Of a stretch of 64,000 bases of DNA, positions 43,071 through 47,077 are shown piece by piece. Location of the stretch: NCBI GenBank assembly GCA_902546145.1, contig CACCIT010000001.1, positions 62,001 to 126,000 on the forward strand, in the 5' to 3' direction. The translations under genes and the position numbers were made by a program. Below the pieces are notes generated by a model. It did not search any database. It saw only the letters and a program-made list of their open reading frames with translations, and was not told the DNA's origin. Positions within the stretch are counted from its first letter, which is position 1, and every line of letters starts with the position of its first letter. The DNA comes from an uncultured Pelagibacteraceae bacterium. GTDB lineage: Bacteria > Pseudomonadota > Alphaproteobacteria > Pelagibacterales > Pelagibacteraceae.

Positions 43071-43132
43071 TATGAACAAAGAAAACGCAAGTAAACTCTG
43101 GAAAATTATTCAGGAAGCTGGCGATTATTTGG
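43071..43132 (+). repeat. Left copy of the 62-bp duplication (attL-like)
   Basis: These 62 bases, one base upstream of ATG 43072 and the first 61 bases of the small gene, are identical to 46849-46910 over every position. Similarity ends abruptly at both sides. It marks the left border of the island. Confidence 0.95.
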
Positions 43133-43140
43133 GGGAATAG
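43072..43140 (+). pseudogene. 5' remnant of the 75-residue target gene
   Basis: The ORF starts exactly like the intact gene at 46850 (MNKENASKLWKIIQEAGDYL) but leaves it after codon 20 and ends with Gly-Glu and TAG at 43138-43140, giving 22 codons. It is the part of the target gene cut off by the insertion. It still has a -10-like TATAAT upstream and may be transcribed, but the product would lack nearly all of the C-terminal conserved part. Confidence 0.85.
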
Positions 43141-43187: not shown

Positions 43188-43288
43188 GCGAATAATTAAA
43201 ATTTGTATTAAAATAAATCGCATAAAGACTCATCGATTTAATCAAAAAACTTGAATACAGACTTGAAACAAATTAGATAAATCAAATA
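43188..43288 (+). repeat. Left copy of an imperfect 101-bp direct repeat
   Basis: Aligned without gaps to 46604-46704, with about nine mismatches by eye (roughly 91 percent identity). The final 29 bases (ACTTGAAACAAATTAGATAA and the next 9) are identical. The divergence contrasts with the fully identical 62-bp outer repeats, so the two repeat pairs differ in age or constraint. Confidence 0.9.
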
Positions 43289-43379: not shown

Positions 43380-43589
43380 CTAAATTTTATAATCTTTTCT
43401 CCATTTATTTGTAATCTTTGTTATGGCTCTATTTTGTGGATGATTATCACTAAAACCGTTTTCACCTGAAATACCAGCGTTGTGACAATTAGATGCTATA
43501 ACTTTTATTTCATCAGCTAATTTATCATCATTGTATTTTTTTTTTATGATTGTTGAAATTGAAAATACAGCATGTTCAATAGGTCCCAT
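43380..43589 (-). CDS. Small conserved-looking hypothetical protein, last gene of the island operon
   Basis: A 69-residue protein, MGPIEHAVFSISTIIKKKYN at the start, then a helical part and a C-terminal stretch with CHNAGISGENGFSDNHPQN and a basic end (KWRKDY). It is 17 bases downstream of the GHKL ATPase gene and has its own SD (GGAG) before ATG 43589, which argues that it is translated. Cys, His, Asn and Asp in the middle could form a small metal or catalytic site, but no family is recognised. It may be a toxin-like effector or a regulator of the system; the sequence does not decide. Confidence 0.6.
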   Translation of the reverse strand: MGPIEHAVFSISTIIKKKYNDDKLADEIKVIASNCHNAGISGENGFSDNHPQNRAITKITNKWRKDYKI

Positions 43590-43606: not shown

Positions 43607-45586
43607 TTAGATTTCCGAAACTCTAGATTTCTCTTTTTCAATTCTTGATTTTAGATCAATTACTTTTTTTGAACCAAAAGACATAAATTTATCCTCTACA
43701 TAAATTTTGTGAATTGCATCTGCATATTTATTTTGAAGTTCATTTGCATATTTATTAATAGCATCTGGTCCAGCTACTAATGGTGTATATTTTCCAGTTT
43801 CTATAGCCCTTTTTGCAACAGCTTTTGAGACAGCCTCTAAAACTAACTCTGCTTGCATCACTTGACCACCAGGAGTATCCAATCCTTTGCCACCTTCTCC
43901 GAGATATAAACTTACTGATGGAGATTTAATAAAAATTACTACATTGTTTTCTGAGTCAAACATAACTCTTTGCTTAACCCCTTCCCTTGGATCGTATTTA
44001 ATATCGTTTATGAAACCACCTCTTTTCTTTGGCTTAGGGTTTGGATTAGGATTTCTAACAGTTTTAGCTACAGAGTGTAAAAGAGTTTGTGCTTCATTAC
44101 TTTCGAAATTAGCAGTTAAAACATTATCGCTACCAACTTGTCCTCCTTCAACTCTAACAGTAGCTTTAACAAGATCTTCCCACTCTGTTTCTTGAAAAGC
44201 AACATCTTTAGTTACAACATTTAATTTCTGCTCTTCAGATGAAAAACTTACAACGTCACCTTCTTTAGCTATGCTAGTATTAGCATAAACTGAAATACTG
44301 TTTGTTTTATTTGAAATTATTGAAAAATATTCTGACAGGAAACCAAACCCATTATTAGGTCTAGGTTTATTTTTTCCCTGAGTTACAACTGGACCTAAAT
44401 CATTTTCACCTAAGAGTTCTTTAAATAATTCATTTATTTTATTTACTGACTCTTCTATTTTAACTTTATGTTTTTTGTCTAATTGACCTTTCCTACTATT
44501 TTGAATTTCTCTTCTTTTCGCATCTATAAAAGGTTTAATTTTTTCAATTACAGTTTCTTTTAAAGCTTTCATGAAGTCGTGATTCCAATTAGGACCAGTT
44601 CTATTAGTTGAAAATACAACTTCATCTCTTAATGCAAGTTCTCTTATATGTGGACAATCACACGTTCCATAAAAAAAAGAAAATGCTTCGTCAGCTGACC
44701 AATCAAATGCGGTATTATCTACTGCTAATCCTTGGGTATAAAAGACTATTCCAGATAAAGCAGACTCCTTTTCTTCGGAAACTGTAGTTAATTCTTCCTT
44801 ACATTCATTTAATTCTAAATTTATCTTTATATCAGGGAAATTTTTAACTGAAACTTCCTCATTTAGAATATTTTTTGATTTAGGATAATTAAATTCTAAA
44901 ACTCTTTCATGAAGAACTCTTTTTCCTCTAGTTGACTTAAAATTAATAGATCTATTTGGATCAGCTATTATATGTCTTATCTCAAAATGTGTCTGTAGTT
45001 GTTCCCTCAACTGTTCATACTGAGTTATTGTTCTTATTTTTGAACAATCTGCAACAACCAAAGTACCATTTTTTTTATGTATTCCTAATTCTGATCTTAT
45101 TTTTTTATTAGCTGATTTCTGTGGGTGTTTAAATAATTTTGGTTTTCTTTTTTTTGTATAGACATCAATTCTATTATATTTGCCATCTTTAATTGTATGT
45201 ACAGTTCCAGAACCAAGTCCCAATAAAGATTGAATCAATCCTCTTCCCCAAAGTCCTCTTACACTTCTTCCTTTTTGAGTATTATCAAATCCACTAGTTG
45301 AAGCTGCGTAAGTTCTTATTTTTTTCTCTAACTCATCCTCACCCATTCCTTCTGCAAAATCTCTAAATTTTAAAATTGCACTATCTAGTTTTCTTTCATA
45401 TTCAATTTCAATTTTTCCATTAATTTTTGCATTTTTATTTTCTAATCTTTTATAACTATCATCAGGATTTGTTGTTAATTCAATTGCTGCTCTTTTTAAA
45501 TCACCTCTTATTGTGTCATTCGCATCTGTAGTTAGCAACCTATCGTCTATCTTAAAATCTAATTCTTCACCTTTTTTTGCTACCAT
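43607..45586 (-). CDS. GHKL (Hsp90/MutL/MORC-type) ATPase, predicted core of an anti-phage system
   Basis: A 659-residue protein with a complete Bergerat ATP fold at its N-terminus: N-box E36-x3-N40 (IELTTNPDD), G1-box D76-x-A-x-G80-M81 (RDFAEGMGEDE) and Gly-rich lid G111-x2-G114-x-G116 (RGLWGRGL). The general-base Glu36 and Mg-binding Asn40 are intact, so ATP hydrolysis is expected. Residues about 290-380 contain CDCPHIRELALRD; residues about 420-505 look like a beta-sandwich domain; the end is helical. GHKL ATPases of this sort (MORC/MutL-like) are known from bacterial restriction-like and defence loci. It follows the wHTH gene with one base between. Exact subfamily is not recognised. Confidence 0.8.
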   Translation of the reverse strand: MVAKKGEELDFKIDDRLLTTDANDTIRGDLKRAAIELTTNPDDSYKRLENKNAKINGKIEIEYERKLDSAILKFRDFAEGMGEDELEKKIRTYAASTSGFDNTQKGRSVRGLWGRGLIQSLLGLGSGTVHTIKDGKYNRIDVYTKKRKPKLFKHPQKSANKKIRSELGIHKKNGTLVVADCSKIRTITQYEQLREQLQTHFEIRHIIADPNRSINFKSTRGKRVLHERVLEFNYPKSKNILNEEVSVKNFPDIKINLELNECKEELTTVSEEKESALSGIVFYTQGLAVDNTAFDWSADEAFSFFYGTCDCPHIRELALRDEVVFSTNRTGPNWNHDFMKALKETVIEKIKPFIDAKRREIQNSRKGQLDKKHKVKIEESVNKINELFKELLGENDLGPVVTQGKNKPRPNNGFGFLSEYFSIISNKTNSISVYANTSIAKEGDVVSFSSEEQKLNVVTKDVAFQETEWEDLVKATVRVEGGQVGSDNVLTANFESNEAQTLLHSVAKTVRNPNPNPKPKKRGGFINDIKYDPREGVKQRVMFDSENNVVIFIKSPSVSLYLGEGGKGLDTPGGQVMQAELVLEAVSKAVAKRAIETGKYTPLVAGPDAINKYANELQNKYADAIHKIYVEDKFMSFGSKKVIDLKSRIEKEKSRVSEI

Positions 45587-45587
45587 A

Positions 45588-46247
45588 TTATTTATTTAGC
45601 TTTTTAAGCATACCTCCTGAATATTTGTCATCGTTGTTTGTGGAAAATAGAAACACATATTTTTCTTTTAAATCATCTAAGAAATTGATCATATCATCTC
45701 TGTTACAAGCTTTAAGATGTTGCGTTAATTCAATAAATGATCTGTTGAGCATTTCAGACGAGCTTTCCATTGTGCAATGTAATATTTCTCTCAAATCAAA
45801 TTCTGTAACATCTAAAATGCTTTTTGAATTTAAAAATTTTTTATAACCATCTGAATTTTCCATTATATTAACGATTTTACCAGATCTTGTCCTGTTATCT
45901 TTATTTGTTTTGATCGATGATTTAATTTTTAATTTCTGCTCAGTTATTTTTACTAAATCAACACCCTTTGGAAGGACTGTAAATCCACTTTTATTGTTTC
46001 CAGAAATATAATCTAAATGTCTACAATCAACCCATCTTTTATCTATAACAGCTGAGTCAGGCCAATCTTCATGTCCCCTTAATCCAAACTTTTTAGGAAA
46101 CATTTTAAAAGCTCCAAGAACTAGTTCTTCTCTTGTTATTGACCTATTTTGTTCACATAATTTATGTGCTGTATAAACGATCAGCTCATTCATACCTACA
46201 TCAATATATTTATTTTCTTCAAACATTTTTAAATCTTCTAATCTCAT
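45588..46247 (-). CDS. Winged-helix-like protein of the island operon
   Basis: A 219-residue protein. Residues about 18-100 read as a winged helix: helices ELIVYTAHKLCEQ and ITREELVLGAFKMFPKKFGL, then GHEDWPDSAVIDKRW and a helix plus wing 'SGFTVLPKGVDLVKITEQ'. The MFPxKFGLxGxxxWPDS pattern is one I associate with DNA-binding subunits beside ATPases in bacterial conflict loci. The C-terminal ~90 residues are helical and may mediate assembly. ATG 46247 overlaps the previous stop by one base (TAATG). Likely a DNA-sensing or targeting partner of the GHKL ATPase rather than a simple repressor, but a repressor role is possible given the palindrome in the promoter. Confidence 0.65.
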   Translation of the reverse strand: MRLEDLKMFEENKYIDVGMNELIVYTAHKLCEQNRSITREELVLGAFKMFPKKFGLRGHEDWPDSAVIDKRWVDCRHLDYISGNNKSGFTVLPKGVDLVKITEQKLKIKSSIKTNKDNRTRSGKIVNIMENSDGYKKFLNSKSILDVTEFDLREILHCTMESSSEMLNRSFIELTQHLKACNRDDMINFLDDLKEKYVFLFSTNNDDKYSGGMLKKLNK

Positions 46248-46468
46248 TATGTAAAATCAAACTCATCTCTTTCTCTTCCAGTTTTTGAGTTTCTAAACTT
46301 ATGTTTTATTACTCTTACTTCTTTTTCAAGCGCGCTAATAATTTGCTCAGCTTCATCTGTTGAGTAAGCGTAATGACTTTTATTAGCTAAATTACCAATG
46401 AGCTTAATAGTTTTAATTGCTTTGTTAGTTCTGCTTTTTGCAAGTTCTCTAAATTTTTTATCTTTCAT
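46247..46468 (-). CDS. Small helical protein, first gene of the island operon
   Basis: A 73-residue protein from ATG 46468: a basic helix (KDKKFRELAKSRTNKAIKTI), KLIGNLANKSHYAYST near residue 23-38, and a charged helix (DEAEQIISALEKEVRVIKHKF). I reject the longer reading that starts at 46522, since it would place the promoter inside the gene. The R-x-N-K-A-x-x-x-I-x-LIGNLANKS-x-YxY pattern resembles small proteins found beside restriction- and ATPase-type defence genes; function unknown. It is coupled to the wHTH gene by TAATG. Confidence 0.65.
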   Translation of the reverse strand: MKDKKFRELAKSRTNKAIKTIKLIGNLANKSHYAYSTDEAEQIISALEKEVRVIKHKFRNSKTGRERDEFDFT

Positions 46469-46475
46469 TGTATTT

Positions 46476-46504
46476 AATATATGTTGCCATATGGCATATG
46501 TCAA
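46476..46504 (-). promoter_or_regulatory. Near-consensus promoter of the island operon, leaderless
   Basis: On the minus strand: TTGACA (46499-46504), 17-base spacer, TATATT (46476-46481), then only 7 bases to ATG 46468. Transcription should begin at or within a base or two of the start codon, so the mRNA is likely leaderless and no SD is present. The -35 hexamer and spacing are ideal, making it the best promoter seen in the window. It is the only plausible one for all four genes. Confidence 0.75.
46485..46496. promoter_or_regulatory. 12-bp palindrome TGCCATATGGCA in the promoter spacer (putative operator)
   Basis: A perfect inverted repeat centred in the spacer between the -35 and -10 boxes, containing GCC/GGC in a very AT-rich background. 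A dimeric repressor bound here would block RNA polymerase. The wHTH or the first small protein of the operon are candidates for autoregulation. Confidence 0.6.
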
Positions 46505-46849
46505 GTGTAAATAATTATACAACCTATAGACTAATCATTATTTAAACCTATATTTACAACAATATTTAGACGAGTATCTTTTTAATTAATTATAAATAAG
46601 AAAGCAGATAATTAAAATTTTTATTAAAATAAATTGTATAAAGACTCATCTATTTAATTAAAAAACTTAAATACATACTTGAAACAAATTAGATAAATCA
46701 AATAGCTATTGAGTGTGTGCAAAAAATCTATAGCTCTTAAATATCATTTATTTATTGAGTCGTTTTGACTCGTTAAATATATTATAGGATTTTATAGGAT
46801 AACTTGAAACAAACTTGAAACAAACGAGATAAATCAAGGTATAAGTAGT
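46505..46849. other. Gene-free right end of the island
   Basis: 345 bases with no credible ORF. It holds the right 101-bp repeat (46604-46704), a GAGTC-N5-GACTC inverted repeat (46757-46771), a duplicated TTATAGGAT, and at 46802-46836 a tandem ACTTGAAACAA followed by ACGAGATAAATCAA that is a diverged form of the end of the 101-bp repeat. TATAAG at 46840-46845 directly before the restored gene may be its new -10, with TTGAAA upstream. Confidence 0.55.
46604..46704 (+). repeat. Right copy of the imperfect 101-bp direct repeat
   Basis: Partner of 43188-43288, same orientation, no gaps. Its last part (ACTTGAAACAAATTAGATAA) recurs a third time in modified form at 46802-46836, just before the restored gene. 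The triple occurrence suggests a protein-binding or promoter sequence linked to the island ends. Confidence 0.9.
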
Positions 46850-46910
46850 ATGAACAAAGAAAACGCAAGTAAACTCTGGAAAATTATTCAGGAAGCTGGC
46901 GATTATTTGG
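46849..46910 (+). repeat. Right copy of the 62-bp duplication (attR-like)
   Basis: Identical to 43071-43132; here it continues in frame into the intact target gene. The element thus brings a replacement for the first 20 codons of the gene it interrupts. Confidence 0.95.
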
Positions 46911-47077
46911 TGGGACAATTACCTGACCATCCAAATCACCCTAAAGGAAGAAACCCCTATGCTCATGTTGCTATCTGTGTGAAGAGTAAATTCAATGCAA
47001 GTTATAAGGATATTCCTGATGAAAAATTTGATGAAGTTATAAAGTATATTGAGTTTTTAAAAGAAAATCCTAGTTAG
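46850..47077 (+). CDS. Small protein restored by the island, possible ORF6C-like C-terminal domain
   Basis: A 75-residue protein. The C-terminal half (AHVAICVKSKFNASYKDIPD, then DEVIKYIEFLKENPS) resembles the ORF6C module at the end of phage antirepressors, with an F-x-A/G-S-Y-K-D-I-P core followed by a helix. The N-terminal half has an HPNHPKGRNPY segment. No SD is seen and a TATAAG element lies 4 bases before the ATG, which could give a leaderless transcript. Its end overlaps convergent ltaE by 8 bases. Function unknown; the ORF6C comparison is by eye and tentative. Confidence 0.6.
   Translation: MNKENASKLWKIIQEAGDYLVGQLPDHPNHPKGRNPYAHVAICVKSKFNASYKDIPDEKFDEVIKYIEFLKENPS

Follow-up and report, generated by a model that had tools for sequence, protein, structure and literature searches.

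A probable self-regulated, leaderless promoter switch at the head of a likely anti-phage operon in SAR11

In the 64,000-nt stretch of SAR11 (Pelagibacteraceae-like) DNA analysed here (the window), the promoter at 46469-46504 and the palindrome in its spacer probably form a switch through which a likely anti-phage system regulates itself. Both recur, the palindrome in imperfect form, in a related mobile cassette of another marine SAR11 bacterium. The promoter itself, read on the minus strand as TTGACA, 17 nt, TATATT, 7 nt and ATG, is almost certainly real and of the sigma70 type (a judgement and not a computed value), and the first-pass annotation had all its coordinates right, including those of the 12-bp palindrome TGCCATATGGCA at the centre of the 17-nt spacer. 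RNA polymerase would start at the AUG of the first gene (gene 1), making the operon mRNA leaderless or nearly so, and a protein bound to TGCC-N4-GGCA between the -35 and -10 hexamers would exclude the polymerase and hold the operon low until it leaves. This protein would be a product of the operon, most likely that of gene 1, which by sitting on the spacer operator would shut its own promoter and so provide the tight, switchable control that had been proposed. The operon, a GHKL ATPase system, is itself the cargo of a small cassette that lies at an insertion hotspot of SAR11 genomes. The explanation as a whole, combining a leaderless promoter, a spacer operator, autorepression by gene 1 and a mobile defence-like operon, is given about an even chance of being right. 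The features concerned are collected in Table 1.

Table 1. Features of the promoter, the operon and the enclosing cassette, in window coordinates
Feature	Position	Strand	Basis or remark
-35 hexamer TTGACA	46499..46504	-	sequence; TTG at -35/-36 from ATG in 7/8 homologous operons
17-nt spacer TATGCCATATGGCAACA	46482..46498	-	sequence; 13/17 positions same in L057
Operator-like palindrome TGCCATATGGCA, 12 bp, conserved core TGCC-N4-GGCA	46485..46496	.	unique in own genome; half-sites kept in G174/L057
-10 hexamer TATATT	46476..46481	-	sequence; same in L057 and L106
AAATACA, 7 nt between -10 and ATG	46469..46475	-	sequence
Gene 1 ATG	46466..46468	-	start aligned in L057; without SD
Gene 1, 73 aa, basic helical hairpin, candidate autoregulator	46247..46468	-	AlphaFold2 H2-27/H37-59, pLDDT 78
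Gene 2, 219 aa, predicted winged-helix N-terminal domain and helical domain	45588..46247	-	AlphaFold2 mean pLDDT 80, wHTH mostly >79
Gene 3, 659 aa, GHKL (Hsp90/MutL/MORC-like) ATPase	43607..45586	-	ELTTNPDD and GLWGRGL motifs
69-aa ORF, operon end	43380..43589	-	no family found; not recognised downstream of relatives
Intact conserved 75-aa gene, insertion hotspot, near cassette boundary	46850..47077	+	
Truncated 64-nt 5' copy of the conserved 75-aa gene, far cassette boundary	43072..43135	+	

The mRNA of gene 1 is predicted to be leaderless, with its 5' end at the ATG or 1-2 nt from it, because of the geometry of the promoter, the alignment of the start codon with that of L057 (in genome G174, the closest relative by gene 1) and the lack of an SD site; this is judged, again by no computation, to be likely. 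In the 179 kb of the same contig that served as the base for the chance statistics, gene 1 is the only ORF of 60 aa or longer whose ATG has, 4-9 nt in front of it, a promoter with no more than one mismatch from the consensus. A missing SD is ordinary here, since a strict SD 4-mer precedes 32 of 181 genes. A survey of 196 SAR11 genes preceded by 60 nt or more of intergenic DNA showed an excess of sigma70-like sites (at most two mismatches) at 20-34 nt from the start codon and not one at 0-9 nt; the leaderless-type geometry is thus unusual for the lineage, and the suggestion that all SAR11 promoters look this way was rejected on this basis. An in-frame TTG start further upstream (46522) was rejected, having neither an equivalent in L057 nor an SD and placing the promoter inside the gene. 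A search for structured RNAs and riboswitches gave no Rfam match.

A profile of gene 1, which proved the productive query for relatives where gene 3 did not, recovered the same three-gene operon at six other loci (L057, L058, L059, L097, L102 and L103) and a seventh relative, L106, whose operon is cut by a contig end; the gene-1 relatives that carry names come from Pelagibacteraceae or Pelagibacterales single-cell genomes. The promoter reads TTGACA tatgccatatggcaacatatattaaataca ATG in the window, TTGACT tatgccacacggcacaatatattataatt ATG in L057 (resolved as TTGACT-TATGCCACACGGCACAA-TATATT-6-ATG), TTGACA ttataatatatttaacatatattaaaaat ATG in L106, TTGTCA tattaca... ATG in L058 and L102, and TTGTAA tattacaaaaatgtg... 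ATG in L059 and L097. A TTG stands 35-36 nt before the ATG in seven of the eight operons, that is, in the window and six of its seven relatives, with 42 nt in L103, as against 5 of 181 background genes; the probability of this spacing is 1e-10 if the operons are independent and 2e-5 if they count as three lineages only. Between the window and L057, 24 of 29 promoter positions are the same compared with 42 of 100 in the flanking upstream DNA (p 8e-5 ungapped, p 0.013 against a gapped flank alignment), and three of nine four-fold degenerate sites in gene 1 agree. Because the promoter is conserved between these two where flanks and four-fold sites have diverged, the promoter block is under constraint. 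These comparisons also bear on whether transcription begins further upstream, with the near-consensus promoter not being the operon's main one: the divergent starts lie 381 nt apart (46469-46849) and the AT-rich DNA between them could hold other promoters, but it is the upstream DNA that has diverged between the window and L057 and not the 29-nt promoter, and the distance from TTG to ATG is kept in six of seven relatives, which makes such a start very unlikely.

On the palindrome, we lean, by judgement, towards TGCC-N4-GGCA being a functional operator. The exact TGCCATATGGCA occurs once in the 0.9-Mb assembly, and the shorter core TGCC-N4-GGCA once in the 179 kb of contig. TATGCC-N4-GGCA is likewise found once in the assembly and once in the L057 genome, each time at the gene-1 promoter. 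Perfect 12-bp palindromes of any composition are no rarity in DNA so rich in AT: the 179 kb hold 125 of them, and a 17-nt spacer would contain one with a chance of 0.4%. Those with at least three G/C pairs number three in 179 kb (1e-4 per spacer). The first-pass annotation had held that absence of the palindrome from close homologues would speak against it; the closest homologue bears the element out, with reservations. In L057 both half-sites, their position and the promoter are kept, with 13 of 17 spacer positions and all eight half-site bases the same, while the perfect 12 bp is lost (TGCCACACGGCA, with the centre changed from ATAT to ACAC). This is the only relative to keep TGCC-N4-GGCA, at the same promoter position; TGCC/GGCA is absent from the other, more distant relatives of this operon type. 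Four of those carry other inverted repeats (GTAATATTAC or TCATATT-N5-AATATGA), the repeat being TTGTAATATTACAA in L059 and L097 and TCATATT-N5-AATATGA in L058 and L102.

The palindrome could instead be incidental to a plain leaderless promoter, with low expression arising from weak leaderless translation and no dedicated regulator. This fits the 11 of 181 genes that have a palindrome of 12 bp or longer at most 45 nt upstream of their start, and the relatives that lack TGCC/GGCA yet keep the promoter and its distance from the ATG. Moreover, conservation of the arms beyond the rest of the spacer is marginal (p 0.05 that all eight arm bases would survive four spacer mismatches), and the spacer taken by itself shows no significant excess of conservation over a gapped flank alignment (p 0.13). 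Nevertheless, the chance of about 1e-4 that a spacer of 17 nt holds a 12-bp palindrome rich in G/C, together with the recurrence in L057, at the same place, of the element that is the sole TGCC-N4-GGCA in 179 kb, leaves this explanation unlikely. It is highly improbable that the site is bound by a global SAR11 regulator encoded elsewhere in place of an operon product. SAR11 bacteria have kept few regulators, and a host regulator could silence a cassette that moves horizontally, but several sites would then be expected where the genome has one, at this promoter, and relatives inserted at the same hotspot have different repeats. In viral contigs, TTGACNTATGCC-N4-GGCA gave 29 matches, none of them seen 5' of a gene-1 relative, and nearly all look like chance occurrences in coding DNA. 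Two viral contigs, L137 and L148 (IMGVR_UViG_2802429469_000002 and 2802429468_000002), have a TATGCCAATTGGCATA palindrome filling the 17-nt spacer of TTGACT-17-TAGAAT; this promoter has an SD, no gene-1 relative was seen with it, and its likeness to that of the window is probably convergent.

Assuming a real operator, the pattern of divergence among the operons suggests which product would bind it. The window and L057 are 73% identical in gene 1, and 24% and 27% in genes 2 and 3. That gene 1 is merely slow-evolving was rejected by comparison with the L058/L059/L097/L102 group, in which all three genes diverge together (78-91%, 73-88% and 65-87% identity for genes 1, 2 and 3). The window operon therefore resembles a chimera: promoter, operator and gene 1 seem to form one unit, and genes 2 and 3 to have another origin. 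As the type of operator follows gene 1 and not genes 2 and 3, we infer a portable head module made up of leaderless promoter, operator and gene 1. Since this module fronts different pairs of winged-helix protein and GHKL ATPase, the first product is the likeliest regulator, and gene 1 is most likely autoregulatory. However, this evidence is indirect: operator and gene 1 are adjacent, and their covariation could come from linkage alone. The AlphaFold2 model of gene 1 consists of two long helices and a turn, in which no HTH is predicted; Foldseek returned no solved structure like it, and Pfam and NCBIfam no match. That gene 1 binds the operator without a recognisable DNA-binding fold is accordingly advanced as a tentative judgement. 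A PADLOC "endonuclease" match to gene 1 (E 0.0046) was dismissed as weak, and GyrA-like matches of the gene-1 profile (L115 and L116) as false. The two small proteins of the island had been proposed as binders in the first-pass annotation; the 73-aa product remains a candidate through its covariation with the operator, whereas the 69-aa product was not found in relatives and has no support as a binder.

The other candidate is gene 2, whose winged-helix protein might be the repressor of a real operator in a leaderless promoter, alone or in a complex with gene 1 as co-factor. It has a predicted wHTH, a classical DNA-binding fold, with weak Foldseek likeness to DtxR and MarR, and no complete relative of the window type has an operon that lacks it. 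However, its top Foldseek match, also weak, is MukF, and wHTH domains are common in effector complexes too. The half-sites are moreover identical in the window and L057 though gene 2 is so diverged that even its predicted recognition helix differs from one to the other. This difference and the chimeric pattern favour gene 1 as the cognate regulator, and a role for gene 2 as repressor is considered quite unlikely.

Behind the promoter lie four minus-strand ORFs of 73, 219, 659 and 69 aa, the second overlapping the first by 1 nt. None of the four has a significant match in Pfam, NCBIfam, PADLOC or PHROG, or to the C-protein or PDC-M33 families. In gene 3 the N box, G1 and G2 ATP-binding motifs are present, with E36, N40, D43, D76, G80 and G116 invariant in two alignments. 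Its homologues, reached through gene 1, match HATPase_c_3 below the curated cut-off in the window operon type and above it in the L107 and L109 types, and its profile matches MutL, Hsp75 and endoplasmin weakly. Scans with the gene 3 protein of viral contigs, genome contigs, phages and plasmids found no relative.

The gene-1 family was found in SAR11 and on plasmids. Its members occur with SD-like sites and other GHKL proteins in the operon types of L107-L109, and with GHKL-like or other large proteins and DNA methylase or Vsr-like genes in L104, L105 and L110-L114. On plasmids, the family supplies the first gene of PDC-M33-type operons (Planococcus, Arthrobacter) and stands before PDC-M33A in Deinococcus. 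The GHKL ATPase operon of the window is most likely an anti-phage or restriction-like system. The earlier suggestion that control of this kind fits a costly or toxic system agrees with the cargo, a GHKL ATPase operon, and with the restriction-modification (R-M) genes beside more distant relatives. At five plasmid loci (L156, L157, L159, L161 and L162) a member of the gene-1 family, previously overlooked, opens candidate defence operons of the PDC-M33 type, and the plasmid loci adjoin dcm or other cytosine methylases, Vsr, type II endonucleases or a Shedu-family gene. L104 (8037-8797) and L105 (8166-8920) have tandem genes for a 72-74-aa protein and then a 177-181-aa protein, the C-terminal part of which also matches the gene-1 profile. 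In the L107-type operon (L107, 10078-11832) the third large protein carries a Sigma70 region 4 domain and matches MzaA of the Mza defence system.

In its proposed working, the window module parallels the control exerted by AcuR and by C proteins, and is a member of neither family. For the acuR-acuI-dddL operon of Rhodobacter sphaeroides, the leaderless start and repression were proved by 5' RACE and operator mutations (PMC3017554). Both operons are alphaproteobacterial and begin with the regulator (here a candidate); both have an inverted repeat overlapping the promoter, no SD on the first gene, and -35 and -10 hexamers placed so that the mRNA would begin at the AUG (the -10 here ends 7 nt before the ATG). 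However, AcuR is a TetR-family protein with acrylate as ligand and an 8+6+8 operator, whereas gene 1 of the window has no HTH or TetR fold and its cargo is a GHKL operon. The C-dependent pvuIIC transcript of C.PvuII is likewise leaderless (PMC2997769), and as with C proteins a small protein, here of 73 aa, heads a restriction-like operon with an operator (here a candidate) that overlaps its own promoter. In contrast, C proteins are XRE-type HTH proteins acting as both activators and repressors, while gene 1 matches no HTH family and is predicted to be a helical hairpin. Among the genes of the window cassette, none could be recognised as coding for a methyltransferase or restriction enzyme. MORC and paraMORC GHKL ATPases occur in mobile R-M-like operons, with Candidatus Pelagibacter in the neighbourhood figure (Iyer, Abhiman & Aravind 2008, PMC2292703). 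The window cargo resembles these operons in that gene 3 is a GHKL protein, but R-M genes (DNA methylase, Vsr, type II endonuclease) occur only near other gene-1 operon types. Since the search of the window operon identified neither an S5 domain nor a helicase or nuclease, gene 3 is not placed in the paraMORC subfamily. The link to PDC-M33, a PADLOC candidate system, lies in the gene-1 family heading plasmid operons of that type; genes 2 and 3 of the window match no PDC-M33 models, and profile comparison with the PDC-M33A and PDC-M33B sets showed no relation.

It is possible, if doubtful, that the 73-78-aa helical-hairpin family is a non-HTH class of autoregulators that moves, together with its own leaderless promoter and operator, as a portable unit to the front of unrelated GHKL-ATPase defence operons in SAR11, and whose relatives head similar plasmid operons in Bacillota, Deinococcota, Actinomycetota and other Alphaproteobacteria. 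The main known examples of defence operons under regulated leaderless control are R-M systems with C proteins. SAR11, which are among the most abundant bacteria of the sea and have few regulators, would then have found an independent solution, one that would show how costly defence genes can be moved safely between cells. A small protein family that heads GHKL or candidate defence operons in several phyla, and is annotated only as hypothetical, would thereby gain a function.

The cassette that carries the operon sits at a hotspot for insertions in SAR11. The duplicated ends that were compared (43072-43135 and 46843-46913) belong to the truncated and intact copies of a conserved 75-aa gene (MNKENASKLW...), and the operons of L057, L058, L097 and L108 are flanked in this way too, as is unrelated cargo in L043 and L049. 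The truncated copies stop 58-65 nt into the gene, sit at the far end of cassettes of 1-5 kb and are followed by similar sequence, GGTGCTAGAGGTACACACTACTTCACACTA in L058; the sequence after the duplicated ends is TAG-GGTACACACTAC-TCACACTA-like. No recombinase was recognised in the window cassette. L049 has three truncated copies in a row, as from serial insertions. A second direct repeat of 97 nt, 93% identical, lies inside the cassette ends (43192-43288 and 46608-46704), with related copies in L043, L045 and L049, and may consist of arm-type sites or be the promoter region of the 75-aa gene in duplicate.
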